Assembly (NCBI GenBank): GCA_950106755.1
Contig: OX467092.1
Span: 27,542,582 to 27,606,581, forward strand
DNA: 64,000 bases
From: Climacium dendroides
Lineage: Eukaryota > Streptophyta > Bryopsida > Hypnales > Climaciaceae
Direction of reading: 5' to 3'
This document shows, in pieces, positions 12,703 through 46,786 of this stretch. The notes below the pieces were generated by a model. It was not told the origin of the DNA, searched no databases, and saw only the letters and a program-made list of their open reading frames with translations. Each line of letters starts with the position of its first letter. Within the stretch, counting starts at the first letter, position 1. Position numbers and translations under genes: made by a program.

Positions 12703-12710
12703 TATAAATA
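12703..12710 (+). promoter_or_regulatory. TATA-like box in the CACTA subterminal region
   Basis: TATAAATA lies about 180 bp inside the terminus, in a stretch (ggggTATAAATAccc, then gccatagtatgcc) conserved at the right end of the 30-kb CACTA (52,595-52,610, reverse orientation). Conservation in two elements suggests a promoter reading inward from this terminus. No transcript evidence is available. Confidence 0.4.
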
Positions 12711-13844
12711 CCCATTTTTAGCCATAGTATGCCAACTAGGCGTATACTTTGACTATCCTAGGGGTTTTTTGACTTTTATTTGGGTTGCCCGGGCAAATAA
12801 AAAAATCCTACGTGGAATACGACTGAGTCGAGTCATATTTTTTGATGACGTGGAATATGACTGCGGTGAGTCATATTTTTGGATGATGTGGAATATGACT
12901 GCAGTGAGTCATTTTTTTGATGACGTGAAATATGACTGGAGTGAGTCATATTTTTTGATGATATGGAATATGACTGCAGTGAATCATATTTTTTGATGGC
13001 ATGGAATATGACTGAAGTGAGTCATATTTTGCAGTGATGTAGAATACGACTCTCGTCAGTCATATTTTATGGAATATGACTGAGGTGAGTCATATTTTGC
13101 AGTGATGTAGAATACGACTCTTGGCAGTCATATTTTATGGAATATGACTTCTGTGAGTCATATTTTTGGCTTCATGAAGTTGTAAGTAGCTTCCAATGTC
13201 TTTGTTTCAACTTTTGATGCCTGTATATACAATTAAAGAAATGAGAGGTTAGTTTTTAGTGATTGAACAACAAAGCCTAACCTTCAAAGACTTACAAAAA
13301 CACAAAATATTTAGCTCAAGTTTAGGATAGAAAGAATAAGATTAATGATGGAAGAAATAAGAAAAAGAAGATAAGTATTAAGAGTTAACAAAAATCAAAA
13401 GTTAAGATGCAACAAGGAATAAAAAGCAACAATTAAGCAACAACTAAGACACAACAAGAAACAACAAACAACAATTAAGATACAATATGAGGCAATAATT
13501 AAGACATAAGAATAAAGAAAAAGCAACAACTAAGACACAAGAAGAAACAAGATTACAAGAAGCACCAACTAAGACATAACAAGAAACAACAAGAAATGAG
13601 AGTATAGATACAACAAGAACAAAAAAAAAGCAAGAACTATAAAACAAGAGGAAACAAAAAAACAAGAACTAGGAAGAAGAAAGAGTTCAAATGCAAGAGA
13701 AAGAAAGAATTTAGATGCAACAATAAGAAACAAGAAGCATGAACTAGAGAGCAACAAGAAACAAGAGTTAAGATGCAACAAAAAGCAACAACAAGTGAGA
13801 GCTAAGAGACAATAAAAAGTAAGAAAGAAGAGCCACAAGAAGTG

Positions 13845-13990
13845 ACGGCTAGGGTTCCAGAACCCTAAAAAGTGACGGCTAGAGTTCCAGAACCCTAAAA
13901 AATGGCGGCTAGGGTTTTAAAACCCTAAAAAAATGACGGCTAGAGTCTCAAAACCCTAAAAAAGTGGTGACTAGGATTCAAAATTAAAAA
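13845..13990. repeat. Five tandem approximately 31-bp units with telobox-like cores
   Basis: Units of the form agtgacggctagggtt…aaaccctaaaa repeat about five times with decay. Each of the first four contains AACCCTAAAA, close to the plant telobox AAACCCTAA, paired with an upstream 'ctagggtt'-like half, so each unit can form a small hairpin. Confidence 0.65.
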
Positions 13991-14513
13991 AAATAGGTGA
14001 CTAGGATTTCAAAATTTTAAACAATGACTTCTCTATATTTTTTTGGAATTGCCCAAATTTTTCTTGAATTGCCCAAAATAAAAAAAAATCACTATTATAT
14101 GAAAATATTAGTGATAATATGACTCAATGTTCCCAAACATGTTCTCTATGTTCCCTATGAAGTACTTTGGTATTCCTAATGGCCGTATAGTATACACTTG
14201 TGACGTACAAGGCGTAAAAATGACTAACAGTCATATTTTGCAGTCATATTTCTCCCCAAAGTATTGGCCTTCAAGAATATGACTGCAAGCAATCGCCAGT
14301 CATCCTCAGTCATAATTTTGCAGTCATAAAACACTGCCATTGTTGTAGTGTTTAAATCCGGTTTTGCTTAGGTTTGGTGTTTTCCGAATCCTGTTCCGGA
14401 TATCTTGAGGAAACTAACGTTGAAATCCTGTGGGAACAATACACGAGTCATCTAAGGTGTTTTACATCAATTTAACACCTAAGGGTAGGATTTGTGCTTC
14501 TTTGTACTATAAC

Positions 14514-17500
14514 AATAAAGTAGTTAAAAAGGAAGATAGTCCATCCGGAATCGGAAACCGGATTATAGTCCTTTTCCAGGAAATTCAATTAAGACCGGAA
14601 TTAGGAGTAACGGCGAAATAGACTTACGGGCTAATCCTACCGGAAGCCTATGATTAACGTTAATCTCCTAGCTGGAATGATGGGTTATCAGGGAAATCCT
14701 ATCCGTTAGAAAAGTACCAACGGTAGGAACCTTAACGGACACAAGGACCGGAATTCGAAGAAAGGGAAAAAGGGAAATTCTTTTCCGTTCGTGATCATTC
14801 TAGGTTGTCAACTTTCCGTGATTCCGAGATGAGCTCTGAGCAAGAGAGAGAGGGAATTCTATTCCGGATTCTCGAGAGAGAGAAGTGAGGTGATTTACTC
14901 GTCTTGTCCGGAATAGAGCTGTATGTTTTTGGAGCAGTTGGAGGAATCGTTAGTCGCCATGAGTGATAGGGAGAACTCTGAGGATGTGAGCAGTGAGGAA
15001 AGAGTACTATTAGCACTCCGGACGGTAGTTCCTATCATTCCGGAAGATGAGAATGAGAAGGCGCAATTGGAGGAGGATCTTACTCGCATCGGCTGCTTAA
15101 GACTACTCAAGGTGCCCTGGAACCTGCGGGATGAAGCGATAGTGCAGGAGCTACTCGAGGAGACAACTGAGGAGATGACAAGCACAATCCGGGGGCAGCC
15201 GGGAAGGTGGACGGCGGAGCACTGGAAGAAGGCGTATGGCTTCACCGCATCCGGAGAGGGTTTGAACACGCAGCGGGACAAGTACAAGGGTAAGTATACT
15301 CGAACCATTCACGCAAAGAATGGGTACATGATCGCGCATTGTGGGGATGAGCGTGAGCGAAGAGTCTTAGAATTTCTGGCTCCGATTATCAATCCGGACA
15401 GGCCGACCTGGCTTACAGTCACCCTGTCCAATTACATCTTTGATGCACTAACCGGAGCAAGAGAGATAAGGTGGGGGTTAGTAATCAAGGAGACAGTGAG
15501 GAAGATGGTCGCTGCTATAGGGAAAACTAAACCCTCCGGTTTAACACCCTTCCTCTACCACCTCTATGATTCCTTAGGATTCTTGAGTGAAAAGGAATAT
15601 GAGACTTACCAATTTGCTGTAGTGATATTAGAGTTTGATATTGAAGACGAGCAGAAAGGGAAAGAGAGAAATCCAACTCCGGAACTGGAATCCAAGGAAC
15701 CGAAACCCAGGCGTAAGGATAAGGGTCCAGAGGTAGGAACTAAGAAAGATGAGCCGGCATGGGATTCAGTCCGGAAGAGAGACGCCTTAGGACAGATCAT
15801 TGGGGAGTTAACCAAAATCCGCCAACACATAGCCAAAGAATGGGAAACCATTCAAAGGATCAGCAAGGCGTTAGGAGTAGATCCCTCCCAACTCACAAGG
15901 GAAGTAGATACTTTTCTACCTGGAAAGAGTGTCCGGAAGTTGGAGAGTAAAGTAGAAGAGTTGACCGGGACCATAGGAGAACTCCAAAATCAGGTCAAGG
16001 AGAAAACAGATGAATTAGAGAGGAGTAAGAAACTCTCTGCTGAATCTGTAGACCTACTTGGGCGGATTGGGAAATTCCTTAGTAATACCAGAGATATGGT
16101 GAATCAGGCCCGGTTGTTTGATGAGGGCATTCACAAGGAAGGAACGCAACTGGGGCCAAAGTTGGTCTCAATTCTGGTTAGTTATGGTGCAAAGATGGAG
16201 AAGACTTTGAGTGAGATGAGAGACCTGTTGGGATTAAACGAACCGGGAAAAGGAATTGGAGGAACCGGTGGTGCCACCCCCTCCAAGGCTTATTCTCCTT
16301 CTCCCATATCATCCAAGAAGGGGAAAGGGATTGAATTCACCCCTCCCCGAATCCCACCATATGAGAAGATGGGGTCTAAGGCCGGCAAAGATTCAACACT
16401 CGGATCGCACACCCGAAGTCACTCAAGGTTGGGCGAAAGTTTGGACTCTCCGGTCAGCAAGAAGCCGAGTCCAGTTCAGCCAAGCGCTACCAAGAAGAAG
16501 CAAACAGCCAAGCGGGCGAGGTCACTAGACGTTATTCCGGTTGCAGACGAAGAAGAGGAGGAGTCGCCCGAGGTCAGTGACAAAGAAGGCAACACAGTTG
16601 AGTCTTCAGAATCAGAGTCGCCTCCCAAGAAAGGTAAATTGAAAGGGGCCACTCCAGGGAAGAGCCAGACATCACGAGGAGGGAAGACTGCGACCGGAAG
16701 GAAGCAGCCAACCCAAAAAGGAGGAGCCAAGAATTTGGAAGGCACCCCCAAGCAACCGAAGAAGTAAGGGCTAGACATAAGAATTAGTCAAAACCAGAGT
16801 TGTTGGTAGAAGTAGTTAGGAAGGTACTTTCCGGTGCAGATGTATCCGGACTCTTAGGATCTGGATTCCTTCTTTTTGTTTCCTGTCTTTTAGTGAAAGT
16901 CAAGGATATGCTTTGGGATGGCACATGTCACTCCCTTGTGGTTAGTTAGGATTCTCAGCTAGGGACCATTGTGTCCCCGCGTTTGTTATTTAGGAGGTGA
17001 CGATCAATTGTTTCCTCGGACAGTTTCCGGTTGTGAGAATTCCGTCTTGATTTGAAGTAAAAATCAGTATTTCCACTTCACAAGTTGATGTGTCTATTGT
17101 ATTGTACTTGTGTTGGTATGCCTAGTGGTGATTTATCACTGATCTGTGCGGGTAGCTGAGGTTGCTGTGGTTGAAAGGAAGGAAAGAGGAAACAGTCCCC
17201 GGATTCTAGCAGATCCGGTTCTATGAGTAAGAGTTGTACACTGAGGTACTGAGAGTGCGAGGAAGATAGAGAAAGATTGTTTGGAAATCATTCTCCATAT
17301 GCTTGAGTAGGGTACAGGTATGAAAACTTAGTTAAGTGGCGGTAGTCAGAATACTAATCCAGATATTACTCCTGATGAAGTGAATAAATCTGAAACCATC
17401 CAATGAGCATTACGGAGTATGTTAGAATGATTGAGTAACTGCTACTCCCTTTAAAGCTCTTGAGCATCCCCTTATAGAATTGAGTCAGGTTAGGATTTGT

Positions 17501-18014: not shown

Positions 18015-18129
18015 ACTTAAAGGCTAACACCTTTGGACTCCGGTTAGTATCATTATAGTGGTTGTAGTCATTTTTATGTAGCAGCAAACTTCGTAGTTGT
18101 TTTAAGATTTCGAGTGTTCCGTAGCCCTC

Positions 18130-19428
18130 ATGAAAAATAGAGAAAAAGGGGGAAATTCGGAGCGAAGATCCGCCTGGTTTAGAGGAGACGAAGCTCCTAG
18201 CATTGATATTCTGGGTGTTCCTATTGAGAGGGGACAGAGAGTAGTAACTGAGCCAGAAGAAGGGTTATTAGAAATCTCCTCAAGAGTTAATTTAGGACCT
18301 GCTTTCCGTTTAGACCATAGTCCAAATCACGAAAGGGAAGATCCTGCTACGAGAGAAGAAGAGCGGGCGGAATCTCCGCCTAACCGTTTTATTCCTATGG
18401 CTTCTACACATCTTCGGTACAAAAGTTTTAAGGGAGACGGAAGTCAGGATGTAGACGAATGGTTATGTGAGTTTGAAGCCATTGCAGTAGCTAACCAAGA
18501 AGGACTAGATGCAAAAAGTAGGATATTCCAGGGCCTTCTCAAAGGGGAAGCCTTAAACTGGTATCCGGATGTTCCGGAGGCCACCCGGAATAATAGGGAC
18601 CAACTCACTAATCTTTTTGTCAGAGCGTTTAGAGAAGCAGGAGGAGAAGCTCGAGCCTTGGGAAGGTTGAGTAGGATGACTATGAAGTCATCTGAGTCCA
18701 TTAGAAAGTATGGACAGAGGGTGAAAGCCTTCATCCAGAAATTGACTACGGAGATTGCCCTAAGCGTGCAAGTAGAGTGGTATGTTGCAGGATTTCCAGA
18801 GGAGATGGGATTTCAGATCCGGCAAGCCAGACCGGCTACCTTACAAGCAACTATGGAGGCAGTCCAGAATTATGAAGATTCGGCTCAGTCCCTAAGGAAT
18901 GCATTAAAGAGAAGCGAGCGGAAGAGTAAGACACACTCAAGAAAGTACGAGAGACGGAAGAGGTACTTCAGCAGTTCGAGTTCAAGCAGCGAGTCATCTT
19001 CGGGTGATTCCCATTCCGACCACTCGGACGCAGAAGAGGTGTCTGGATCCGGCACAACATCCCGCCATCATTACCACAAGGTTGCCAAGGTTGCCAAGGC
19101 CAACAAGAGCAAGGCCTTGATCAAGGTCAAGGTGGAAGAAGACGACTCCAAGAAGTTCATGAAGAATATTCAGGATTCCTTGGAAGCCATCAAGGTGAAC
19201 CTGGCGGAGAACCGGAACCCAAGGCGCACGGTGCCGACTAATCAGGCAAACGTGTGGTGCCCTCGTTGCGGCCAACCTGGTCATTTCCCAAGTGAGTGTA
19301 CTCAACCCCACGTTAAGCGGATTTATTATGTGAATCCGGAAGATGAAGTATATATGACTATGACGGAGGAAGGAGAGGACGAGGATAAGATGAATCCGGT
19401 ATTCCAAATCCAGCCAACCTACGGATGA
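18130..19428 (+). CDS. gag: Ty3/gypsy Gag (Athila/Tat-like)
   Basis: 432 codons. Residues 95-260 form the retrotransposon gag region, with FKGDGSQDVDEWLCEFEA, then GLLKGEALNWYPDVPE and a downstream helical segment. A Ser-rich stretch SSSSSSESSSGDS follows at about 281-295. A CCHC zinc knuckle, CPRCGQPGHFPSEC, starts near residue 377. Gag packages the element RNA in cytoplasmic virus-like particles. The frame closes with TGA at 19,426, but the same frame reopens at once and contains two more CCHC knuckles (CFNCGLLGHYANNC at about 19,528 and CQNCGEYGHGSEQC at about 19,615). The TGA is therefore most likely a CGA-to-TGA nonsense change rather than the true end of Gag. An ATG eight bases after gtagccctc starts the frame. 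Confidence 0.85.
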   Translation: MKNREKGGNSERRSAWFRGDEAPSIDILGVPIERGQRVVTEPEEGLLEISSRVNLGPAFRLDHSPNHEREDPATREEERAESPPNRFIPMASTHLRYKSFKGDGSQDVDEWLCEFEAIAVANQEGLDAKSRIFQGLLKGEALNWYPDVPEATRNNRDQLTNLFVRAFREAGGEARALGRLSRMTMKSSESIRKYGQRVKAFIQKLTTEIALSVQVEWYVAGFPEEMGFQIRQARPATLQATMEAVQNYEDSAQSLRNALKRSERKSKTHSRKYERRKRYFSSSSSSSESSSGDSHSDHSDAEEVSGSGTTSRHHYHKVAKVAKANKSKALIKVKVEEDDSKKFMKNIQDSLEAIKVNLAENRNPRRTVPTNQANVWCPRCGQPGHFPSECTQPHVKRIYYVNPEDEVYMTMTEEGEDEDKMNPVFQIQPTYG

Positions 19429-22400
19429 GGAAAGGTAACTCAACAGCTTGTTCGAGCGGGTGTAGTTCCTAGGAGTGTTCCAATGGGAATGAATCCACCT
19501 ATGTACCCACCCATGGCACAGATTATTTGCTTCAATTGTGGTCTTCTGGGTCATTATGCTAATAATTGTCCTCACAAAGCACTTGGGCAAGGAGCTCCTT
19601 TTATCTTGCCATGTCAGAATTGTGGAGAGTATGGGCACGGTTCGGAACAGTGTCCGAAGCCAAAACATACTCGGATTCTATATAAGCAAGTCGATACTCC
19701 CCCTAGGGAATAGACCACGCTTAATTACGGATCCAGTGCCGGAATAGAGAATCCGGATAAATGACCTGAGGAGGTGGAGTTACCCATTAGTATAGGCAAA
19801 TCAGTACTTAGGGTAGAGACTCGTAGCTCCACCAAAACAAGAAGAGTAGGAAGAAAGAAACTAGGAAGAGACCAACGTAGAGAATCCCTAGAATCGGATT
19901 CCAGTGATTCTAATCACTCGGATCAACCTCAGTTCTCCATACCCATAGCAAATTCCGAAAATGGGGTAGAACTGCGAAGGATTGTAAAAGATATCAGTAG
20001 GGAAGTACGTAGCCAGCTAGAATCTTCTGCTAGCCAAGAATTAGGAAAGGCAATTCCTATTCCGGTTTCCCTTCCACCTCAGAGAAGTGTTAGATTTAAT
20101 AACGTCCCTGTGTTTATCAACCCAGTCAGGAAAGAGACCAGATATAACGTTTTGTAGGACATCAAAGATCAGAAGGCTAATGTAACGATCGGGCAGCTTT
20201 TAGATGATAATGCTAATTATCAAAAGCTAATCTGGGAGGCGTGGACCAAGAAACGCAAACGAAGATTTAAACTCCCAGCGGTGGCAGTAAATTTTGCTCA
20301 AGTTGAAGATTATGGACCTCCCGAGCTGGTGATAGAGATTGAAGGATGCACCATTCCGAATGTGCTGGTGGATGGGGGATCCGGAGTCAACTTAATGCTG
20401 GAGGAGACAGCTTTTGACCTTGGGTTTACTGTGTTTGAAGCAACTGATAAAGTCCTACAAATGGCAGACCAATCACGAGTCATTCCGGTTGGACGATTAT
20501 CACAAGTTCCTACCCTCATCGGAAAAGTAACTTACTTACTGAACTTTGTGATAATCCGGGTTAACAAAGGAAGGCCATTTCCCTTGTTGTTGGGACAACC
20601 TTGGTTGTATTCAGCTAGAGTAATAGTAGACTGGGGACATAAGGAATTTGTTTTAGGAACTCCTAGTATCTGAATCCCATGGAAGAATGAAGAACACATG
20701 GGTGAGACAAGTGAATCCGATGGGTACACTTCCAATTGGTCGGGCCTAGAAAGATCCTCCTCAGATTTAGTTTATATTATAGAAGAATTCAACGGAGTGA
20801 CTGAGGAAGACTTTGAGTTTCCCAAACCTGTGATAGAATTAGGAGAACCAGATTCCTCCCTTAGTAACCACTCTAGGTTCCAAGAAGATCGATCCCTTGG
20901 ACAAACTAGTGTCCCATTGACCACTGAGTGAATCAAGGAACAAATTAAGGAAGGAGGTCTAGCAGCCGTATGATTGAACTCCGGTTCCCCAGAAATACCA
21001 TGGACAGAGATTCAGGGTCAGTCCCTAGAAAGGGAACCTGATCCGGTAAAGAACATAGTTAATCCTTCGGACGATGAGAAGATAGAGATTGAACCCAGAA
21101 AATCATTTTTTCTAAGTAAATCTTTATGTAGAAATGAGAAGAGGAGGTATAAGAGACTATTAAAGAAATATAAAGATGTATTTGCTTGGGCCTCCTCTAA
21201 TCTCAGCGGAATACCACCGGAATTGGGAGAACACCGGATTGACTTGGTAGAAGGAGCTGTTCCGATTAGACAGAGGCAGTACCGATTGAATCCGAAGTAC
21301 TCCTTAATGGTGAAGGAGGAAATTGATAGGCTCTTGGAAGCCGGGTTTATATATCTAGTTAACAATTCGGAGTAGGTATCCCCGATTGTGGTAGTACCCA
21401 AGAAAATTGGAGCTGATGGCAAAGTGAAGATCCGAGTTTGCCAAGACTTCCGGAAGTTAAATACTGCCACCAAGAAGGACTACTTTCCGCTTCCCTTCAC
21501 CGATATTATCCTAGATCATGTATCTGGTCAAGAATGCTACAGTTTCTTGGACGGGTTCTCGGGATATAATCAAGTGCATATCCGGTTGGCTGATCAGTTG
21601 AAGACAACGTTTACCACGGAATGGAGAACGTTTGCATTTAACCGAATGCCATTTGGGTTATGTAACGCACCCGGAACTTTTCAAAGGTTGATGATGGATA
21701 TCTTCCGAGATTTTTTGAAGCACTTCTTGGAAGTCTTCATTGATGATTTTGTTGTGTTCAACAAGAAGGAAGAACATCTGGAGTTTCTAGAGAAGACCTT
21801 CATCCGCTGTAAGGAAACTGGACTAAAACTACATCCGGGTAAGTGTTTCATAGGTATGGAATCCGAAATTCTACTAGGACATGTGGTCAATAGGAAAAGA
21901 TTGGAAGTAGATATAGATAAGGTAAAAGCAATTTTTTTTTTGATCACTCCCACCAATGTACGAGAATCAGAGGGTTTCTCGGATGTGTGGGATACTATAG
22001 GCGGTTTATAGAAGGGTATGCTAAGCTAGCTACCCCCTTGACCGAACTCTTGAAAAAGGATGTTGATTTTCTCTGGACTAAAGAGAGGCATAAATCGTTT
22101 GAGGAGTTGAAAGGGAGGTTAGTAAAAGCTCCAATCCTTGTACCACCGGATTGGAACAAGGAATTCCATGTAACGATAGACGCATCTGGTTGGTGTTTAG
22201 GGGCAATCCTGTGGCAACAGGATGGGAAAAATGAATGCCCTATTTACTATGCTAGCCGGAAGATGAGTCTTGCGGAGAGAAAATATACTACAACTGAAAG
22301 AGAGGCTCTTACAGTAGTATATGCATGCAAGAAATTCAGGCATTACTTGCTAGGGTACAAAGTCATCTTCCATACGGATCATGACTCTTTGAGGTATCTC

Positions 22401-22549
22401 ATAAATAAACCTGATCTATCTGGTAGATTTGCTAGATGGATATTACTCCTACAAGAATTTAATTATGAAGTAGTAGTAAAGCTAGAAAAAGCAATAGCGA
22501 ATGCGGATTACCTATCACGTTTGAAAGGACCAGAAGCAGCATCCGATAT
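19429..22549 (+). pseudogene. pol: Ty3/gypsy Pol: zinc knuckles, protease, RT, RNase H, cut by a CACTA
   Basis: Continues in the Gag frame. Two zinc knuckles are followed by an aspartic protease with VLVDGGSGVNLM (20,367) and flap/C-terminal LLLGQPWLYSARVIVDWG. The RT has VKIRVCQDFRKLN, YSFLDGFSGYNQV, MPFGLCNAPGTFQRLM and catalytic VFIDDFVVF. After a one-base loss near 21,966 the frame shifts into RNase H: RGFLGCVGYYRRF, HVTIDASGWCLGAILWQ, YTTTEREALTVVYACKKF, HTDHDSLRYLINKPDLSG. The wording (SGYNQ, IDDF, WILLLQEFNYE) is Athila/Tat-like. In-frame stops at about 19,711, 19,761, 20,155, 20,671, 20,929, 20,971 and 21,373 (TAG or TGA) each fit C-to-T or G-to-A decay; the one at 21,373 replaces the Trp of the usual WVSPIVVVPKK. 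A 30-kb CACTA starts at 22,550 and the frame resumes at 52,783. Integrase is not in the window. Confidence 0.9.
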
Positions 22550-22559
22550 CACTACAACA

Positions 22560-23240
22560 ATGGCAGGGTTTTATGACTACAAAATTATGACTGAGAATGA
22601 CTGGCGACTGCTTACAGTCATATTTTGAGAGGCCCAAGTCTTCTGTAGAAATATGACTGGGAAATATGACTGCCAGTCATATTTTGACTTTGTACTATAT
22701 ATACGTATACTATACGCCCATGGGGAACATGTTATATTTCATAGGAAATGTGTGGGAACATGTTTAGGGAACGCCCAATCATATTACCAGTCATATTTTT
22801 TTTTTCAGTCATATTTCCACTTTTTTTTTTTTTTTTTTTTCCGGGTAACCCAATGAAAATTTGGGCAGATTTGGGCAGATTTTATGTTAGTCATATTATT
22901 TTGTCAGTTATATTTTGCAGACATATTTTCCTGCCAGTCATATTTGTCAGTCATACTTTATGTCAGTCATACTTTATGTCAGTCATATTATTTTCTCAGT
23001 CATATTTTTCAGTCATATTTTTGTCCAGCCATATTTTTCAGTCATATTTTTCAGTCATATTTTCTGCCAGTCATATTTTATAGTCATATTTTATGTCAAT
23101 CATATTATTTTGCCAATCGTATTTTGCAGTCATATTTATTGCTAGTTATATTTTGCAGTCATTTATTTGGTCAGTCATATTTTCCAATCATATTTGTCTG
23201 CTAGTCCTATTTTATAGTCCTATTTTATGTCAGTCGTGGC
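22560..23240. repeat. Left subterminal repeat array of the CACTA (gtcatattt)
   Basis: More than 20 copies of cagtcatattt or close variants, in both orientations near the tip and then mostly one orientation, with T-rich spacers. In En/Spm, such subterminal motifs bind TNPA. Apparent open frames rich in 'QSYF' here are translation of the repeat. Confidence 0.85.
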
Positions 23241-23584: not shown

Positions 23585-24496
23585 TCAATTACAATCTCCA
23601 TCACAATATTGTAGGTCATCCACATGTACTTCGTCTTGTTGTAGACGTTGCAATGCAATTGCCACCACATTAGCTTCTACTTCCACTGCATCACATAAGA
23701 TGGGTGTTTTTGGTATGGGGTCTTCAGACAAGTCAGTGGCTTCGAGTCCGTGAAACTCTGTTGTCTTTCCAAGGGATATGCACTCCACTTCAGTTGTCCC
23801 TTCATGTTCAGAGAACAATCGAACACCTCTCGGTTCCCTACGGAGTACAACTTCCCATCCATGTCTGGCCTTGTCTGATGCAAAAAATACTTGTTCAATG
23901 TGGAGAGGGAATGCAAACAACTGTGCTGAGTAAGGAATCAATCTATCAAAATTCACACTAGTGAATCCATACTCATCACGCTTCATAGTGGCTCCATCGC
24001 CCTTCATGTTTGCAACCACCCAATTGCAATATAGTACCAGTACCTCAAACTGCCCATAATCTACAGATAGGATTTCCTCCACCCACCCTACGTACTCTAG
24101 CTTTGAGTCCTTCATGTTTTTATCTTTTGCGCTTGCTCGACAAAGTTGTTTAAAGGTTGCTGCTATTCCTGAGTCCATTGTTGTCAATTTCTTCTCAATG
24201 CTTCGAACACGAATGTGGTTTCCAAATGCATACATGGAACGATATGACTTTGCTCGATCTGATGGAGGTAACATTAGAGTCCTCACATCTTTGTCCACTT
24301 CTTCTGTACCGACTTCTATAGCTCGTAGCACTGCCTTTGGAAACCAAATATGAAACTTTTCGTCACACATTTCAGTCGGGTACACTACTCGACTTTGATG
24401 TTTTTTACGCCTATACTCTTGTCGCTCTCTTTCACGACGGCGCATGTCATCTTCATACCTCCTACGTCATTCAATAATTGAATGTGTGAGTTCATT
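23585..24496 (-). pseudogene. CACTA transposase, C-terminal exon (DUF4216-like)
   Basis: An approximately 286-residue open frame precedes the stop at 23,585. It contains LEYVGWVEEILSVDYG, VLVLYCNWV, DEYGFTSVNFDRL, AFPLHIEQVFFASD and WEVVLRREPRGVR. These are in the order of the DUF4216 domain at the C-terminus of TNP2-type CACTA transposases, which has the same Y.G.I..L and QVFY.D…W.VVL pattern. An acceptor tcag at about 24,497 would start the exon. Reading from it meets one TGA at about 24,468, which fits CGA decay. The splice phase to the previous exon could not be reconciled, so another small exon or indel may exist between 24,497 and 24,837. Confidence 0.75.
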
Positions 24497-24836
24497 CTGA
24501 TTTACAAACCTAATACTACTTTGAGTCATACATGCACTTACAATACTCGTTGCAGTCATAAATGCAATTAGATTGCTAGGTTTAGTCACAAATGCAATCA
24601 CTGAAGTAGTTAACCAAAAGAAAAATACACTAATGTTGTTCTCACAGAAATGTTAGGACATGACTATGTGTAGTTACAATTTCATATATGACATTTATAT
24701 TGCATTACTAAATGGGAACACAAAGAATGATGGATCTTTTTTCTTCTATGGGATGGAAAAAAACATTATTACTATCAACATTTGATTCTAAATGCTCTTA
24801 TGCAGTAGGAGGGTTATTTCTTTCATACGACCTCAC

Positions 24837-25735
24837 CTCCTCCACTCCTCCAACGGTGCTGCATTGTTCAATACAAACTCGTGAATCCATTGTTGTAGTT
24901 CACTTGATAGGTGGCGTGCTCGTCCATTGCCTTCCAAGATTTCGTCATACATTGATGGATCTTCTTTGTCATCCCACACTCTTCGGGTGGTCACTGTATA
25001 CTCCTGCATGTATTTAGTACAGAACCCCAATGCTTCCACCACAGCGTAGCCTTCAGCCATGCTATCCTCTGGTCGAGCCCGATTCCTAACATATCCTTTT
25101 AGTGTCTTCAAATATCTTTCAATGGGATACATCCAATGTGTATGAACGGGTTTGCAAATTTCTACTTCTTCCACAAGGTGGACAACTAAGTGGCTCATGA
25201 TGTCAAAAAAAGATGGCGGGAACTCTTTCTCCAGCATGCATAATGCTATCACCATATCTGACCTCAATTCCTCAAGAGCATTGGTATCAATGGTCTTAGC
25301 ACATATCCTCCTAAATACACGGCTCAACATAATTATAGCTTTTCGTACCTCCTTTATTAGCACTGTACGAACATTGAGTGGTAAAACTTGTTGCATGAGG
25401 ACATGGTAGTCATGTGATTTCAAACCCTTCATGGTCCCATTCACATGCACACGCTTCTTCAATTGACCCACATATTAGGTGGGTGTTTGCAATGTTCAAA
25501 TTCCATCTACGAAGACCTGACGTTCCTGTTTCGTGAATGTGTAAGATGAACGAGGTAATATGACGCTCCTAGGTTTTTTCCTAGGTATGGGCCAAAAATG
25601 TTTACGTACACCTGCCTCCTTCATGTCCAAACGGACCTCCAAGGAGTCTTTTTCTCTATACAAGGTCTTCAACATATTCTCGGTGATGTTCTTCTCACAA
25701 TGCATGACGTCCAATGTGTGTCGAATCAAAAGGTC
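24837..25735 (-). pseudogene. CACTA transposase, middle exon (end of TNP2 and DUF4218-like)
   Basis: The exon starts after gtgcag with DLLIRHTLDVMHCEKNI, the classic end of the TNP2 catalytic domain (…RHNLDVMHIEKN). It continues through GLKSHDYHVLMQQVLPL, ALCMLEKEFPPSFFDIMSHL and VHTHWMYPIERYLKTLKGYV, the hallmark strings of DUF4218. It ends at AGGAG|GTGAGG. Two nonsense codons near 25,485 and 25,505 (TAA and TGA, from probable CAA and CGA) lie at the linker before GLKSHDYH. The frame is otherwise continuous for 300 codons. In intact elements this protein cuts the CACTA ends in the nucleus. Confidence 0.85.
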
Positions 25736-25933
25736 CTGCACAATGACTTCCAGGTGTTACAAATTGCATACACTATGACTATGTTCAATCATTTCATTCA
25801 TATAACTACCTCTAATATGTCACAATATTTTGATTTATAAGTCAAAAATTGTACTAGACTAGTACATTTCTTATCACTTCGAGAAGCAATTTCATAAATT
25901 ACAAAAAAACATCAAATTCCCACACCTACTTAC

Positions 25934-27491
25934 TTTTCAATACGGCAAGTTATACAGACATGTCCTTCTCTTCACTCCGTGCTTGTGTACTGGATCTACC
26001 AAATTTTCTACTCCATTTTCACGAGACTTTGTCAACCATTCCTCTCGCTCTTCTGCATAGCGAAGTTGTTCTCGACCAGTCATCCTTCTAGGTGGAGGTC
26101 TTACATCCACTTCACCATCAAATGTACCCCTCTGTCGTCTCCGCTGATGAGTCATAGGCAAGTATCGTCTGTGCCCCATATACAAGTTTTTCCTCAAGGC
26201 TTTAGAACGCCTAGTTACTATATGTGGCCCACATACAGGACATGCTCTATATCCTTTTGTTACTTGACCTGAGATTAATCCATATGCTGGAAAGTCATTC
26301 ACCGTCCACATGAGAATGCCATGTAACTTGAATGATTTCACTACTGAGTTTTTGCAAGATCCGTCCAAGCAATCAACCCCTCTCCATAGTTCTTGAAGCT
26401 CCTCAATCAATGGTGCCAAGTACACATCTATGTTCTTCTCTGTTACACTCTCTTTTCCTGAAATGATTAACGTAAGCATCATAAAGAAATTTTTTGTCAC
26501 CAACCAAGGGGGAAGATTGTAGTTCAGCATAATCATTGGCCAAGTTGAATGGCTAAGGCTTTGGTTCTGAAATGGATTCACACCATCCAATGCCAAGCCA
26601 AGTCTGACATTGCGATCGTCTTCAGCAAACCATTGCCACTTGTTGTTCACATGATTCCAAGCCTTGGAATCTACAATCGATCTCATTACCTTGTCTTTGC
26701 TTTTCCCACCTACATGCCATTTCATGAGCTCCGCCAACTGTGTATTGCTATACATTCTTCTTAATCGTGGAATCAAAGGGAAGTGTCTCAATACTTTCAC
26801 TGGTACACTGTTGGAGTTCTCTACATATCGGGATTTGTGGCAAGTAGGGCACTCTACTGCGTCCTCTAGTTCGTTGCGGAACAAACAACATCCATCTCTA
26901 CACGCATGTATGGAATTGTATGACAACCCCAACTTCATCAAGAGACTTTTGGCTTCATAAAATGATTTGGGAAGTGAATTCTCTTTTGGTAATATGGTCT
27001 CTGTCAACAACTTCAGCAACTCATCAACAAAACTATTAGAGACACCATGAGTAGTGCAGTTCACTAGTCACTAGCAACATGAGTGTGGACATCAAACGGT
27101 TGGAATCGCTTCCCACGTACAAAGGAGTTTGTGCTTCTCGCAAAAGAACATTCATATCTACGCCAGTTACATCTTCCATGTTGGTTGAAGTCCCCTCTCT
27201 CTCCATCCGGTCATTGTTGGCATCCACTTGCTCGTCAAGATTGTTAGTGTATAAACCTCGTAAACCATTTCTCCTCAAACCATCTTCATCTGTTGCATCC
27301 TCAAGTGTATCCATAATAATATTCTCAATTCCTTCTCCACGGACATGTATGTTGTCATACTTATTAAAACACTCTGTTACCATACGGAGCACATCCACCT
27401 CTCCAACATTTGGAGAGGGGTCTCGTTGAACAGGCTCTCCTCGAACACTTCTTCGTTTATGCAATTGGAGGTCCACAGGAGCATAGTCATC
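25934..27491 (-). pseudogene. CACTA transposase, TNP2 catalytic exon
   Basis: It begins after ctatag with a charged linker and then matches transposase family tnp2. Motifs in order are PLYVGSDSNRL, NSLPKSFYEAKSLL, IHACRDGCCLFRNE, ECPTCHKSRY, LALDGVNPFQNQSLSHSTWP, YNLPPWLVTKNFF, NIDVYLAPLIEEL, NDFPAYGLISGQV and GYRACPVCG. It ends KRRTCLYNLPY followed by TGA and AAA|GTAAGT, where relatives have LPYWK, so TGG became TGA. A 7-bp tandem duplication (tcactag twice, 27061-27074) shifts the frame by one inside the N-terminal part. Removing one copy joins the two open frames exactly. The asparagine-aspartate of NDFPAY and the aspartate of LDGVNPF are retained. The exon is in phase with the upstream SET exon. 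Confidence 0.88.
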
Positions 27492-27994
27492 CTATAGTAG
27501 TCCATGTGTACCACATGCACATATAAGTTTATTGTAAAATTAATAATTGGAACATGCAAACTTGTGGGACGTGATCATAATAAAATATAGCATTCTGTAC
27601 TAGTGGATAATGATCATGAACATTTCAATTAGCACTCCAAATAGGATTTCTTAAGTCAAAGAAATGATTATCAATTTTAGTTTTCATAAATTGGCAAATA
27701 AATCAATTTTCATTAATTCATTGTATGCTTAGGATGAATTAAAAATAATTATCATTTTCCCTTACTACGTCATGAATACACAATTTCATGTTCATGTTCT
27801 ACTTTCCCATAAGGCCAAAACACATGTAAACAATTGACACTATCTGGCACTCTACCATCATATTCCACTACATATAGTGGGCCTCAATAACATTGTTAAC
27901 TACACAATATGACTGAATACGAAGTGTGACTAAGTATAGTTTTTTAGAAAAATTCAATGATCCTATTCATTTGACAATACGTTTTTTAATTTAC

Positions 27995-28579
27995 ATAGTA
28001 ATGTGCATAGAGTTCCTCTCCAGCCACAATATCCCTTGACGCTATTGTCATTACATATCCCCACTCCAAGTTGTTCCATGGTTTGGGCAGCATGCGAAAC
28101 TCCCACATGACGTTCCCTAACTCCTCTCGACCTATAGAACTATTAATAAATCCGGTTACATTTCCCTTCAATACATCTCTGTCTATATACAAGTCCGGCT
28201 CAACTTCCATCACATATGACTTCATGCGAGGTTGTCCCTCCTTCAAAATTTTATACTCTGCTAGTGTATACTGGGGTCCTACAAAGGGAAGTAACTCTTC
28301 CCCTTTTTTTGCGGGTTGTAGGGCAAAAAGACCCCAACCCATGAAAGGAAACGTTGATACCTTCACATCCCAATTTCTTTGCCAATAGGAAAATATTATT
28401 AGTTTCGGTATGGAACCATCACACCACTATCCATCATACACATTTGACCTCCACTTCTCTAAAGCCACTACTCTTCTAGACGTTCCTTTCAGTGTGTCAT
28501 TCGTTGAAGTATGTGTCTCTCTTACAAATGTTTGTAAAGAAACCAAAGAGGAGGCTTCCACATAGGGTCTCCACAAGGC
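27995..28579 (-). pseudogene. SET-domain exon inside the CACTA transposase gene
   Basis: A 195-codon exon between acceptor tgtgtag| and donor TAT|GTAAAT, phase 0 at both ends. It is preceded by a phase-0 donor (ATCTTG|GTAAGG, 28,683) and followed by a phase-0 acceptor (27,491). The last 130 residues form a SET domain: FMGWGLFALQPAKKGEEL, VGPQYTLAEY, YVMEVEPDLYID, GNVTGFINSS, LGNVMWEF, YVMTIASRDIVAGEELYAHYY. SET domains transfer methyl groups from S-adenosylmethionine to lysine. The usual NHS motif is NSS here, so the histidine is missing, while the substrate-side tyrosines are retained. The 65 residues before it match nothing I know. One TAG at about 28,391 interrupts the exon. If the donor is not used, the frame ends at TAA 27,986, giving a separate SET protein. 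Confidence 0.75.
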
Positions 28580-28682
28580 CTACACAAGTCATTGAAACTT
28601 TAATAAAACAATGTAGAGGTATATTATTGACAAAAGCATAGTGTTTTTTTAATAAACAATTCATTACTTTCAATGTCCTTAC

Positions 28683-28955
28683 CAAGATAGAGGTCATAAA
28701 AGTTGGGTCCCTCTTCTTGCTGCGAAGATGTTTTCGGATTGTACGTCTATCAAGCACTTTTCCTCCTGCACACTTCATGCAGGGGCACGGGTACTTTGTT
28801 AGACGCATGTTATCTGCTTGAATTTCTTCTTCTTGCCATAATCGTAGCTCTTGCAAACTTTGAAGCTTCCCCTCAGACATGTTGTGTACTTCCCTGATAT
28901 GCACTACAAAGAAAATGTCAATGTCATATATTTCAATCACTTCTGGATTAGTCAT
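28683..28955 (-). CDS. CACTA transposase N-terminal exon (CPC-type zinc-binding, Transpos_assoc-like)
   Basis: From ATG at 28,955 the frame runs to donor ATCTTG|GTAAGG. The core, KYPCPCMKCAGGKVLDRR followed by IRKHLRSKKRDP, matches the C-P-C..C…HL pattern of the transposase-associated domain at the N-terminus of CACTA transposases, a presumed zinc-binding DNA-contact module. A possible acceptor (tatcag|GGAAG at 28,893) means the first 20 codons may belong to an upstream intron. The exon is phase 0, open throughout, and splices in frame to the SET exon. Confidence 0.7.
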
Positions 28956-29094
28956 AATTGAACATTAACATGACTATTGCAATATGGCTATGACTACTTC
29001 AGAGTCATAAAAATTGTTTACAATGACTACGTTCATTCCTGTGAATGCCTAAACTTTACTCGGTATAGTCTTAGAAGTCTACGTACAATTCAAG

Positions 29095-29430
29095 TTACAT
29101 GACATGACTAAATACAGTTATATAAGTCAACATATTACTCAACTTACATGACATGACTGACTACAGTCATATAAATGGACATACAACTCATGTTACATGA
29201 CATGACTAACTACAGTCATATAAGTCGACATACAACTCATGTTACATGGCATGACTTGATACAATCATGTTAATCGAGATACAACTGAAGTTACATGACA
29301 TGACTTGGTACAGTCATATAAGTTGAAATACAACTCACATTACATGACATGAGTCGGTACTGTCATGTTCGTCGAGATACAACTCAGGTTACATGATATG
29401 CCTAGGCATAGTGATGTGACTTCGCTCACA
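29095..29430. repeat. About six tandem 60-bp units
   Basis: Units of the form acatgacatgactnactac followed by agtcatataagtcgacatac and aactcatgtt repeat with decay. They contain paired gact…agtc half-sites, a variant of the subterminal motif of the same CACTA. They lie just upstream of the transposase start, so they could act as a binding array at its promoter. Confidence 0.75.
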
Positions 29431-36589: not shown

Positions 36590-38405
36590 GTTAGCTTCAA
36601 TCCTTTCCTATTGGAACTAATTGTGCTAGAGAAAGACACATAATTCATTGAATTTTAAAGAAGTTTTCCATCATTGTTGAAGTGTTTCGTTATTGCAATT
36701 GCCATCTGTATGTGGTTAGTTGTAGTTTACAATTTCTCTTTAAAAGTGCATTCATTTATTAGACTCATAATTTGTCTTCAACAATTTGGTATTAGTCATT
36801 TCTGACTTTCAATAGTTTTAAAGGTTGATGTTTGTGAGAGAGAAGCAGGAACATAGAATTTGTAAATCAAGTTACTCTCATATGAGCACATGTGATTCAT
36901 TAGAGTTAAACTAAGTTAATACATAACCCTTATTTGTAGTAATGACCAATTACAATACATTGTAATGTAAAATGATCATGTCTAATTGACCGGAGTCATG
37001 AATAGCAACGCTTTGTTCACTTCCAATTGAAGAATTTAGAATTGTGTGTACTGTTAGTCTATATTGATTTACTGTGACTTCGTGGTAGTCAATATTCATT
37101 TGTTGAGACATTTTGTAGTGATGTATAATCTATTGTGACTGTGAGCAGTTAGTAATGATATTTTGTGAGTGAAAGCCAAGTCTCGATAGGTGTTCTAATA
37201 GTATTTATAGTCAGAAAAGATGTTTTGTGTGTCATACGCGCAGTTAGCCGTAAGTATCCTTACAACAACCAATTGTTGCAAGATGACACGAATTATCATT
37301 CCAGGGAACTTCTAGTAAGATATCGATTGAGTTAGAAGTATCCGGATTGTGACTACTCACTTAGTCCCCCTCTTTCACTTCCCTACTTTATTCCAGAAAC
37401 TTAGTACATTTCCGGATTCCGTTCCGGATCCGGATACCTCCGGAATTGAGTTCCGTCTCTCTTCCGTCACTGGTTTTTGTTGCCTCTGTTTTACCCTCAG
37501 AGGGTCCGCCCTTGATCTAGAAAGGGGTGGGGACTCACCACTTGTACAATTATCCTCTCTATACTCTAAAATCTACTAAACAACACACCCAAGACAACAC
37601 AGCTGTAGGAGGAGGAAGGAGTATCCTCTCACAGTTTCCGGATTGGCCGATCCGGAATCAGGTCACATAGAGCAATTCTCACACCTCTCTTACTACAACG
37701 ACGGATCAGAACTTATAGACCCAAAGGAATAGAATCTCAAGGAGAAGATAATGTACCAAGAGGGAGGTTGGTAGACTTTCCAGAGTAGCGGGAGTTCCTT
37801 TCCTTTGGCGGTTGCTTATCTCCGCACAGAACCCTCCTGGTTCCGGACTCGCAGGGCCCTCTACCTTCTTACCCGGATTGCCGTTCCGACAATTTAAAAG
37901 CACGTCACACTTTCACTCCCTTACTCAGTTTGCATTCCTTCCACTCAGCTCAACACCAAGAGATCCGTAGCTCAAGATCCGGATTCCTCCTCTCCCTCCC
38001 TTCTCTTTCTCCAGTACCAGGTCACACACCCATGCATACACTCAACCAAAAGACCCTGTCTAAGCAAAAGTGCAGCTAGAGGTATCCTAGTTGACTTAGA
38101 TTAAGAAAAGAGAATTGTAATACATACGTGAAAGCACTAAAACGGAATGGAGTAGGATGGAATGGCAGACAACTAACTTGCCTGCCCTTAAAATACTAAC
38201 ACAAAACCCAAAGTCAACTCCTAAAAGCCTGAAAAGGAAACCCAGAAATCCAAGCCACCAATCCCTGAACCTCCCGGGATATCCGGAAAGTTTACTAACT
38301 ACCGTCCGAGATTGTCGGATTTCCTGACTATCCGCCTAAGATTCCGGAAACCGGGTCCATGCTCGGAACCCTGATCTGGATTCTATACTTCTTCTCCTAC
38401 CAATC

Positions 38406-39435
38406 CTAATGTCTTGGCTTCCGTCCTTTCCTTGAACGGCTCCCCGCTTGGCTGGTAGGCGTCCCCTTCGTATTCTTTGCTGGCGTAGTTTTTGCTGTGG
38501 CCCGAGTCTGGATATGGCGCGTTGCGGGAGACGGATCACTGTCGTCTTCTGTTCCGGAAGTGGAGTGGGCACTCTCCTCCTCAGAATCTTCAATGACTTG
38601 AACTTCCTTCTCCTTCTCTAGTGTTGTATCCTCCAATGTTGCGGATTTGCTTCTTTTCTCCGGCGTGGTCTCTTGCATGTGTACAAATCCTTTCGGATTA
38701 GTCCGAGCCGGATTGGTCATCCCACTGATCCGGTTGATGAGATCTCCCCTGACTTGCTGTCTCGGAACCTTGAATGATCCGATCATCAAGTTCGGCATTG
38801 TTTGGGACTTGGGAACTTCCGGGGTTGAGAACTTAGATGGCACCGGAACCGATTTCGCGCTAGACTCAGGTTCCGGTTCCAAGGATGGCCTCAAATTCAA
38901 CTCCGTCATCCGCATTTTGCTAGCGGAAGGCTCGACTGGTGTGAGTATCCTCCTCAAACCCTCCATCCGAGTTGCATGATCCGCCACTGGTTTCCCTGGG
39001 GTACCTGAGACAAAAGGAAGTTCCGGAAAGGTGGAGAAATCCATCGCATGGTTTGGATTGATAGCCGCCAGTAACTTCTAGATCTCCTTCAAAACTCGCT
39101 CTATCCTCGCGGTGAAGTCTACGAGGATGGTAACTACCTTGGTTCTGGTAATGTGGCCTTCCGATATCATCTTCGAGTCAAACAAGGCAGCTTTGGTGAT
39201 GATGTCGGCCTTGATGTTGACTGCTCCGGTTAGATTCTTGACCAGAGAGAGAGCCTCTTTCTCTTTCTCTTTCTCTTTTGCAGCTGCCATTTCCCCTTCC
39301 GCCCAATTCACTCGGGCTTGGAGTTAGTTCCGTTCCGCCTCCAACTCCAAGATCCGCTCCTCCCTCTTCTTCAGATCTTCCGGTTTGGGCAGTCGCTTGA
39401 CAGCTTCCACGATCTGATCCGGATCCACCTTCAAA
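38406..39435 (-). pseudogene. LTR-borne ORF subfamily 2 (element A), C-terminal half
   Basis: Continues the ORF interrupted by element N. It reads VLKVDPDQIVEAVKRLPKP, then a heptad-rich EDLKKREERILELEAERN, then NLTGAVNIKADIITKAALF, FPELPFVSGTPGKPVADH, a Pro/Ser linker, and a basic tail …GSRSRKGRKPRH. In-frame stops are TAA (near 39,326, where the relative at 54.5 kb is open) and TAG (39,079-39,081, shared with the copy at 54,735). The basic, Ser/Thr-rich tail parallels that of the intact 614-aa ORF. Function unknown. Confidence 0.7.
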
Positions 39436-39440
39436 ACTTC

Positions 39441-42400
39441 TGTAGCCATTAGTCGGACCAGTATTCCTCCAGTTAGCCTTTAATTCACACCAAAGGCCTT
39501 CTTAGAGTAAACCGCTCCGGAATCGTTCCCACGAGGACTTGTGGATTACAGTTTCATAGGCTATCCTGGTCTAAGCACTCACTTTTCTCTCCGTCAGATT
39601 ATTCCGGACTTTAGGTCCGGTCCAGACACTAGTGCCAGGTGGGTTCCGGAAGGATCCGGAAGCCGTTTCAGTGTCCCTTCCGGGATCCCTAGGTTTGGAT
39701 GACGAGTGGCCAGATCCACCGTCCAGATGCTTACCGTGTCCGGAAACACGCTCTCTTTCACTCTCTCTCTCTCTAATACTAACAGCAACCTAACTCTTCA
39801 GGAACCAGAAGTATCCTCCTGTTTCGTCGCCTCACAAATCCGGAAGTTCTCCCGGATTAGGTCACACAGGGACGGTCAAGAACTACAACAACATTCTAAC
39901 CTTTAATCGAACACTGAGCCTCCTGTCGACCGGCTGGTTTCTCCTGTACTTTCTTGGGCTTGCGCCGGGGCTTAACTCTGTTCTACGAGGAATTCCGGCA
40001 ATCCGGACTTCGGGCACGTCTGGCAATACCTCTGTATATGGAAGTTTGCTAGCAGCCTCTCAGATATCCCTTTTCACCTAGGGCTATATCCTACACGCAG
40101 GCTATATCGGCATCCGAGCAGTACTATCCTAACCTTACTGCCGGAACCATCCGGTTGATCTCCCCCTCAAGTTAATACATCCGGATACTCTCACAACATC
40201 GACTCTTGCCACACAAGGTAAGTTCTTAGTCCTGGAAATGCAAGAACGGACTCACACCTTTCACAAACATATACCGTACACAAGAAAGATAAGAGATTGG
40301 ATACTCCAACATACTTTAGAATTAAGCTCAGAAAAAGGTACAATGCTGAAACTATGAGATGGCTGTGAATGACCAGAAAGGTCATTAAAAGTCCTACTTA
40401 TACTAAGACTAATGTCATCCTAAAAATCCTACAAAGCATTCCTACTGGTCCACTAGATTTCCGGAAGATTCCAGATCCTATTTTTCCGGCTTTGACTGCC
40501 GGACTCCGGTATTGACGGCCGGACTCCGGTATTGCCACTATACTACACTACTGTATACTATTCTTTTGAATCTGGATCTTTAGGAGGAACATAATCCTTC
40601 AGAAGATCCAGCTTTACCTCTTTCCGGCTACCCTCCGGAGAAAACAGATTCGGACCCCTTTGGCCCCATCTTGGGATTTCCACGATACTGGTGTCCCTGT
40701 CCACACTCCTAGTCCCGACTACTTGAGTGTCCGGACTCCTTCTCGCGTCCTTCTGAGTCTTCTTATGACGCGGAGAAGACTGCACCGGCCGGCCGGCGTG
40801 AACTTCCGGAGAAGCACCCGTCAGGTCAATAGTCGAAGTCACCGGCAGTAGGTCTTCACTTCCCGGAGGTACCACTGCTCCCCAGTCCACTCCTTCTGGT
40901 CTTCCGGCTGGTGGTGAAAGTTCCGGATTTACCGGGACCACCGGTGAGACCTCCGTAACCATAGGTTCCGAATCGCTGCTTTCTGGAACCACCAAAGTCT
41001 GCGCTGACGGGGGAGATTGAGGTGCCAGATCCGACTCCGTAGACATAATGTACTCCATCATCTCCCTCATCGTGGCCCGGGATGTATCCATTCGTCTTGC
41101 CTGCTCCAGTAAGCATTTGACGATAGGAACCCGACTTGAGCTGGCGGCTGCATCGAGGTTAGTTTCAAACAGCCGAGCCTTGTTGATATAGTTTGTCGGG
41201 ACCTCTAGAGAGCTCCGAAGCTGAACTACACTTTCGCACAAGGCCGCTATCTACCGGCGATGGTCTTCTTCTGTGAGCCGGGCTATCTCCTTAGTGGTGC
41301 GGATGGTGCTCTCTAAATCCACACAGCGGGATTCCGAGTTCCGGACTTGGTCTCGCAATGTCCGGTTTTCTACGCGCAACGCCTCCAACTCTGTTACCAA
41401 ATTCTTCTGTTCTGCTATGAGGAGGTTGTTTTGCTGCTCCGCTGCCACCAATGCATCTGTCCTCCGGAAAATGGCGTTCCGGTCGGTTAGCGCCATCTTC
41501 CGGCACACTCGTTTGAGGGCTCCATCATAGTTCTCGCAGATCTGGAAGAGATCGTCTGCCCACCACACCAGATGCTGAGCCATCTCCTAGATGTCTTCTA
41601 GGGGTGACCCTCCCAATCGCATGGTTGTCCGATCCCTCTCCTCCACCTCTATCATCCGGGTCCGGGAGGGTCCAGCCTCAGCCTAAGTGGTGACGGTGTG
41701 CGGTCGTATCGGCCCAACCAGTTGCAAGGATGGTTGGACTCCCTTTGGAACAGGTCCGGTTTCCGTCTTTACCTCCTGAACCTCTTCCTGTGGTTCCGGT
41801 GTAGGAGGCTCCTCTGACGGACTTACCGGCGGCATTCTATTCCGCCGTTTCCTCTTCTTTAGCGGAGAGACCGGCTCCTCTTCCTCAGTGTCCTCATCGT
41901 CCGGTCCGTCTCGAGGCGAGGGCTCCTCTCCTCCGTACTACTGCAGTTGGACTAGGTCCTGATACGCACTCTCCTCATTCGCCTTGAGCAGAGAGTGGTG
42001 GGCGTACAAATGAGACAAATATGCCAGAAGAGGACTTTGGCTCTTCTTTCCGGACCGGAGGGCACGCACTCAGTCTCCGACTAGCTCGTGGATGATGGCT
42101 GCCTAGTCCATCATCATCTTTCCCTGGAGGCTCCCCAAGATGGTGGAGGCTACCTTCGCTACTACTCGCCGCGGCTTGGTAGGATGGAGGATAGGGTTGA
42201 GAAACGCTACCACATCCCGGTACTCCGGATTCACCAGGTCGGAAACCTGGTTACCTTCCTTCGAGTTGGTGGGTGCCCGGAATTCACCCTCCATCACCTC
42301 TTGGTTCTTTTCCATGACCTTGTCCAGCGCCTCCCGGAACTTGTAGACGGCCCGCCAAGTGTTCACCGTCTACAAGTCTGGCTTCGCCCGAATGGTGGTA

Positions 42401-43150
42401 TCCAAGATACCAATTTCCGGACGAAGTATGTCCGAAACCAGGCTCTCCTCTCGGATTCCCCACGGCACTTCTAGGAGTCCGTCACACCCCATGTTGCGGA
42501 GATGCTCCCGTAGGCGCGCCAGCCAGTCCTCCTCCGTCGGAACCTCCGGAACCACCTTCATCACCGGGATGGTCCTTGGTCGAGGTACAAGTGCCTGCGC
42601 CTCGTCCTCTGAATCCTCTGGCAAGTCCTTCAACTTCCGCCGGCTTGTCCTTGAAGCCATTGTGCTCATGAACAATCCTCGCACAATCTCTCCCTAAATC
42701 TCTACTCACAACTGTCACTCCGGTAACCCACACGATCGCAACTCACATAGTCCCTCAGTCTACCGGAATTCTAACGAAGCGAGGAAAACGGAATACGCCG
42801 GCAGAAGAACAAAAGAAAGAAGATAAGTGTGCCCGCAGCCGGCTACAGTCCCCCTCTTATACGGGCCCGATGTACGGGACAGGTTTTGGCGGCAAAACCC
42901 TATCCCTAGTACGGATCCGGTTTCCGGTTTAGGGCCGGCGCCGTCATCCGATTTCCGGAACTTTCTAGAGTTCCGGATTTCAGGTTTTTAGCCCAAATGA
43001 ACTTTTTCCGGATCCGGAAATCCGGTTTTCCTAATTTGCCTTAACTTCCTAGGAGAACTCAAAAACTTTCCCTCTGAAGGAGACAATTTTTTAAATTTTT
43101 CCGTCCTATACTAGTATTATGGGTCTAGCATGTGGGATCGCATTCCCACA
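39441..43150 (-). mobile_element. Retroelement N nested in A, 3710 bp, TSD ACTTC
   Basis: Read on the minus strand it begins TGTGGGAATGCG (43,150) and ends ctaatggctaca (39,441). ACTTC flanks both sides (39,436-39,440; 43,151-43,155). The interrupted ORF of A rejoins in frame across the empty site (…DTAEV then LKVDPDQ). Like A it has a leader, one long ORF and a 1.1-kb 3' region, with no terminal repeats, PBS or pol. This is a second independent ORF-bearing solo-LTR-like unit. Confidence 0.82.
40558..42660 (-). pseudogene. LTR-borne ORF subfamily 3 (element N), about 700 codons with seven nonsense codons
   Basis: ATG at 42,660 opens MASRTSRRKLKDLPEDSE. One frame runs to 40,558, broken only by stops: TAG at about 42,370, 42,104, 41,938, 41,684, 41,588 and 41,252, and TGA at about 42,068. 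No frameshift is seen. Conserved parts are MGCDGLLEVPWGIREESLV, VVAFLNPILHPTKPRRVV and LLAYLSHLYAHHSLLKANEE, aligned in order with subfamilies 1 and 2. Then come an acidic stretch, a coiled coil (LVTELEALRVENRTLRDQV) and a Ser/Pro-rich C-terminus. A run of nearly pure TAG changes in an otherwise intact frame points to CAG deamination. Confidence 0.7.
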
Positions 43151-46772: not shown

Positions 46773-46786
46773 TTCTGCATTTACAG

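Follow-up and report, generated by a model that had tools for sequence, protein, structure and literature searches.

A SET-domain gene inside a CACTA transposon of Climacium dendroides

A 64,000-nucleotide stretch of Climacium dendroides DNA (assembly GCA_950106755.1, contig OX467092.1, positions 27,542,582-27,606,581 of the forward strand), here called the window, holds a DNA transposon of the CACTA superfamily. Within this 30,233-bp element an open reading frame (ORF) for a SET domain lies on the strand of the transposase gene, between its first exon and the exon encoding TNP2 (Transposase_21). An earlier note, made from the sequence alone, had read the SET segment as an internal exon of the transposase. 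Its placement of SET inside a TNP2-type CACTA element, between exons 1 and 2, is borne out, but not its status as an internal exon of one protein; the evidence instead points to an accessory gene that ends at its own stop codon.

Boundaries and transposase gene of the CACTA element

CACTA-type terminal inverted repeats (TIRs) start with CACTACAACAATGG at 22,550 and with CACTACAACAAAAG at 52,782 (Table 1). The two are 86% alike over 44 columns, and the right-hand repeat was the only good rightward partner found for 22,550. TAT stands on both outer sides, as a 3-bp target-site duplication (TSD), and the element thus combines a Transposase_21 domain, CACTA TIRs and a 3-bp TSD, as expected of a CACTA transposon. 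A model in which the element was truncated near 29.4 kb, no matching TIR having been found at 28.9-36 kb, was replaced by the pairing of 22,550 with 52,782.

The boundaries are shared with a non-autonomous relative of the same family, whose two ends match those of the element and follow the same order; similarity is 84% over 659 columns at the 52,782 end and 78% over 253 columns at the 22,550 end. In this relative, tblastn gave no match to SET or transposase. The element interrupts a Ty3/gypsy element (gag, reverse transcriptase, RNase H) that occupies 18,106-22,549 and resumes at 52,783. When the flanks are joined at the empty site, the pol frame of the gypsy element stays open for 25 more codons (...GPEAASD-ISVQLPDEFPD...) and is then lost; the sequence that continues this frame past 52,782 is presumably gypsy-like. 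Because a run of 25 open codons is expected by chance in about 30% of unrelated sequence and gives mild support, more weight is put on the TSD and the shared ends.

Table 1. Features of the CACTA element and of its relative, in positions of the window
Feature	Positions	Strand	Remarks
CACTA element	22,550-52,782	- (transposase strand)	30,233 bp from TIR to TIR; inside a Ty3/gypsy element; carries a nested LTR-type insertion
SET gene	27,986-28,579	-	from AG acceptor before 28,579 to TAA stop at 27,988-27,986
Exon 1, CPC/Transpos_assoc-type domain	28,683-28,955	-	ends at GTAAGG donor
TNP2 (Transposase_21) exon	25,937-27,491	-	starts at TATAG/GAT acceptor; frameshift near 27,050
DUF4218 exon	24,833-25,756	-	PF13960, E 2.3e-36; broken in the window copy
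Last transposase exon, DUF4216-like	23,585-24,466	-	PF13952, 29.3 bits, just under the 30.6 cut-off
TIR on the 3' side of the TNP2 gene	22,550-22,593	+	followed by AGTCATA-type subterminal repeats
TIR at the other end	52,740-52,782	-	subterminal repeats at ~51.88-52.75 kb
TSD TAT, left copy	22,547-22,549
TSD TAT, right copy	52,783-52,785
Nested long terminal repeat (LTR)-type insertion	37,224-46,182	-	direct repeats 37,224-38,290 and 45,118-46,182, 95.6% identical
Non-autonomous relative, same CACTA family	12,526-14,350	+	TSD TTT

The copy in the window, which the earlier note had called degraded, is dead: there is a stop at codon 51 of SET (28,429-28,427), the TNP2 exon is frameshifted, and the nested insertion makes up about 9 kb of the element. 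This decay bears on activity and leaves the assignment to the CACTA superfamily untouched. The minus-strand ORFs of that insertion have no clear Pfam match.

The neighbours named for SET by the earlier note (CPC, TNP2, DUF4218 and DUF4216) lie as described, with the reservation that the Transpos_assoc and DUF4216 matches score under their cut-offs. Exon 1 reaches 22.7 bits against Transpos_assoc (PF13963; cut-off 27.7), and in blastp against a set of 163 proteins it matched the N-terminus of TNP2 proteins (P0098, E 1.3e-10; P0105, E 1.8e-10). The TNP2 exon matches Transposase_21 (PF02992) with E 1.1e-73. Protein searches returned candidates of up to 1.75 times the query length, or about 255 aa for SET, 658 aa for TNP2 and 857 aa for a joined exon 1-SET-TNP2 query. 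The search with TNP2 found 815 relatives, of which 120 were listed. The motif DEYSP occurs in 7 of these 120, and Gln directly precedes it in all seven, while the residues before that Gln mostly differ, apart from P0046 and P0048, which are alike. An invariant Gln next to upstream divergence is what a CAG/GAT-type acceptor at the start of the TNP2 exon would give, and on this comparison the exon begins at a conserved acceptor.

Pfam places Transpos_assoc and Transposase_21 in one ORF in 13 of the 120 listed TNP2 relatives and a SET domain in none (proteins of up to ~658 aa). The simplest reading of these sequences is a transposase in which exon 1 joins TNP2 in this CACTA family, with SET as an addition to the intron within a single sub-lineage. 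Fused in turn with SET, TNP2 or intron sequence, exon 1 scored 21.5-21.7 bits against Transpos_assoc, compared with 22.7 alone, which did not discriminate between these partners.

Just upstream of exon 1, at 29,067-29,404, a 49-bp unit is repeated in tandem; its AGTCATA-type motifs may represent promoter or protein-binding sites. Near the other end of the element, several ORFs on the opposite strand (46,745-51,497, +) perhaps belong to a second gene. A TNP1-type identity for such a gene at 46.7-51.5 kb was rejected, as none of five ORFs reached a Pfam cut-off (best E 0.012).

The SET reading frame and its relatives

All the SET signature strings named in the earlier note are present, and the ORF matches the Pfam SET profile (PF00856) far beyond chance, with E 1.8e-10 and 41.6 bits (cut-off 22.4) over positions 1-104 of 105. 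At 28,546, where the nearest relatives have their predicted start Met in the alignment, the window copy has a codon for another residue. Among candidates of up to ~255 aa, 43 SET homologues were found, and an alignment of 24 of them with the window copy has 16 invariant columns. The window copy is about equally close to its nearest relatives in both genes, with identities of up to 82% for SET and 80% for TNP2. The Asn and Tyr of the SET motif are active-site residues of SET methyltransferases; Asn is found in 40 of 43 aligned letters and Tyr in 34 of 36. In the NHS motif, Ser takes the place of His in the window copy and in 41 of 43 aligned letters, so that the motif is not fully canonical. 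As to origin, the best profile scores favour neither Set1/COMPASS-type H3K4 methyltransferases (34.5 bits) nor a bacterial SET (34.9 bits), and a fold comparison gave tied rows.

The splice donors and acceptors that the earlier note had predicted on both sides of SET are present and in phase 0 (with a slash at the splice point, TTG/GTAAGG at 28,683, GTGTAG/GCC at 28,579, TAT/GTAAAT at 27,995 and TATAG/GAT at 27,491). The GTAAAT at 27,995 is also the last two codons before the TAA of the SET ORF. The C-terminal motif GEEL is reached by 33 of the 43 homologues, and in each of the 33 a stop follows 11-24 residues after its first letter. The proposed donor needs a GTN codon, that is Val, which is found in 15 of the 33; of the other 18, 15 have Leu and the rest Ile, Trp or Gly. 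Two residues past the proposed splice point, an Asn is kept in 14 of the 15 homologues with Val and in 16 of the 18 without it. Since an intron would not conserve this Asn, coding continues to the stop, and the GTAAAT of the window seems to be an ORF terminus with a chance likeness to a donor. SET is thus probably not an internal exon of a CPC-SET-TNP2 protein.

SET and TNP2 relatives also occur together on one long contig elsewhere, and perhaps on a second, short one. SET match P0029 and TNP2 match P0136 come from one source in another assembly and agree in the length of their longest contig, 598,999 bp; SET match P0023 and TNP2 match P0060, from the same source, agree at 2,846 bp. In a control that offset contig sizes by -200 to +200 bases, such matches averaged 0.16 per shift, with at least one in 15% of shifts and two at most. 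Among genome contigs, 15 bacterial SETs of 25-32% identity were found, none of them of this SET family; one stretch among viral contigs encodes a relative; and plasmid and phage collections gave no match to this family.

Readings of the SET gene and other features of the window

The reading that probably accounts for these results is a CACTA family with an accessory SET gene in its transposase intron. It draws on the SET domain, the element boundaries, the separate C-terminus, the TNP2 acceptor and the co-occurrence of SET and TNP2 on a long contig of another assembly. Under this reading, an ORF of about 180-190 codons sits on the transposase strand in the intron between the Transpos_assoc exon and the TNP2 exon; the transposase mRNA would run from exon 1 to TNP2 with SET skipped, and SET would be read as an ORF of its own, starting at its own Met or forming the last part of a short exon 1-SET splice product, and finishing at its own stop. 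The product would be a lysine methyltransferase acting on chromatin. By analogy with the SET genes of HarbingerS, MuDR and Helentron elements and with the TET/JBP genes of fungal EnSpm elements, it most likely modifies chromatin to counter silencing, and would do so by keeping the promoter or ends of the element permissive while transposase is produced. It may instead have the reverse role, setting self-limiting repressive marks, or may methylate a non-histone protein. A stronger proposal, possible though doubtful, is that a long-lived CACTA lineage encodes its own histone methyltransferase, as a TAD-SET protein made by alternative splicing of the transposase transcription unit or as an intron-nested ORF, and writes permissive marks on its own chromatin. 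It would then parallel, in a further transposon superfamily and a plant-type genome, the SET and TET genes known from oomycete and fungal elements.

Several points weigh against an accessory SET gene of this kind. Catalysis by the SET protein is uncertain, because its NHS motif has Ser for His. The start Mets given for the SET ORF of relatives were chosen by a gene finder. The shared contig size of 598,999 bp is hardly a coincidence and signifies co-occurrence, not adjacency; the shared size of 2,846 bp would mean adjacency and is perhaps due to chance. Genome and viral contig collections returned no locus of this CACTA family. The C-terminal tails exclude the donor at 27,995 and leave other donors a few codons away, and long fusions beyond the candidate sizes given above are invisible to the protein searches.

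Possible though doubtful is a short isoform in which a splice from exon 1 enters SET at 28,579 and the SET stop terminates translation, so that the element would make a TAD-SET protein as well as a TAD-TNP2 protein. The GTGTAG/GCC acceptor is in frame, before ALWRPYVE; the RP of this string, which lies upstream of the Met of the nearest relatives, recurs in P0021 and P0026 (RPHIQ). Read by eye, P0043 has an out-of-frame N-terminus compatible with ALWR at this place. Alternative splicing is known in En/Spm, with several products from one transcription unit (PMC1636069). The plausible start Mets in the SET ORF of relatives nevertheless speak against this isoform, exon 1 joined to SET scores 21.6 bits against Transpos_assoc rather than the 22.7 of the exon alone, and no TAD-SET protein was found among 572 candidates of ~270-857 aa.

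It is unlikely that SET is a passenger, a host gene or fragment captured by the window copy alone (transduplication) and without a role for the element. Plant CACTA elements do pick up host sequence, and the window copy is decayed; yet the 43 homologues form one family, with invariant columns among the 24 aligned with the window copy, their C-terminus falls at the same place, and SET and TNP2 co-occur in another assembly. More improbable still is that SET came with an unrelated gene or mobile element inserted in the transposase intron. The window is crowded with nested insertions, but the SET ORF is not flanked by direct or inverted repeats within 27.2-28.9 kb, SET stands on the transposase strand, and the contig co-occurrence again argues for a link with TNP2.

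The reading of the earlier note, a CPC-SET-TNP2-DUF4218-DUF4216 fusion translated from one mRNA in which SET forms an internal phase-0 exon, is very improbable and fares worst. The splice-like sites of the window and the Val, hence possibly GT, of 15 homologues favour it, but it lacks support: all 33 homologues that reach the C-terminus keep the SET stop, 18 of them have lost the donor codon while most of these 18 retain the Asn past it, the TNP2 acceptor is conserved, and relatives have the exon-1-type domain and TNP2 in a single ORF. The joined query likewise recovered no fused exon 1-SET-TNP2 protein among its 572 candidates, which is weak evidence, as a full fusion would be longer and the database seemingly consists mostly of unspliced ORFs.

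Elsewhere in the window, two copies of one sequence, 93.6% identical, lie at 43,151-44,502 in the nested insertion and at 54,385-53,034 to the right of the element; they contain an ORF without a clear Pfam match, and an ORF at 14,917-16,767, before the gypsy gag, resembles it. Exons with a PIP5K domain at 61,363-62,893 (-) are probably part of a host gene, which we take to be of FAB1 type. Repeat arrays occupy 55,869-56,315, 59,664-60,050 and 60,215-60,546, the first two open in several frames.

Comparison with known systems

CACTA termini and a 3-bp TSD are features of the superfamily, common to Jozin-type elements and the element in the window. Jozin of Chenopodium is a CACTA (En/Spm) element with a TAD-Transposase_21-DUF4218-DUF4216 gene (PMC8978399), and the window element has the same transposase domains in the same order. 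The window element differs in its SET gene, which lies in the intron separating TAD from Transposase_21; in the main text of PMC8978399, a survey of Chenopodium CACTA elements with an angiosperm comparison, the whole words SET and methyltransferase are absent, and passages there name Transposase_24 and Peptidase_C48 as further domains.

SET genes have been described in other DNA transposons. HarbingerS and MuDR elements of Phytophthora carry genes for SET histone methyltransferases, as cited in PMC12730594; on the account of that citing paper they are likewise DNA transposons with a SET gene, but belong to other superfamilies and to oomycete hosts. Proto-Helentron-Pi, also of Phytophthora, has a separate intronless SET ORF of ~153 aa that was compared with Clr4 (PMC4067079), a parallel to the separate ORF proposed here, although on a rolling-circle element. 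Fungal EnSpm and other DNA transposons contain TET/JBP genes, for which passages of PMC12730594 propose an anti-silencing role; these too are captured enzymes of chromatin or DNA marks carried as an extra gene, but they are 5-methylcytosine dioxygenases and their hosts are fungi. The elements of Phytophthora therefore displace SETMAR, which the earlier note had named as the nearest precedent. SETMAR of primates likewise joins SET to transposon-derived sequence, but is described as a domesticated host gene, formed after Hsmar1 had inserted downstream of a SET gene (PMC6326780), and is not carried by a transposon. In En/Spm itself, TnpA and TnpD arise by alternative splicing, and TnpA is reported to reactivate the methylated promoter (PMC1636069).

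No report of a SET gene in a CACTA element was found in the literature covered, outside which lie most subscription journals and Repbase Reports. This suggests that, while SET genes in DNA transposons are already known, a CACTA carrier is new within that literature. Transposons and hosts compete over chromatin marks. If SET is kept under selection, an element of the superfamily of Spm would itself write a histone mark, and the placement of SET in the transposase intron would couple expression of the mark-writer to that of the transposase. The capture of SET would then extend beyond the HarbingerS, MuDR and Helentron elements to one more superfamily of DNA transposons, and to plant-type genomes.
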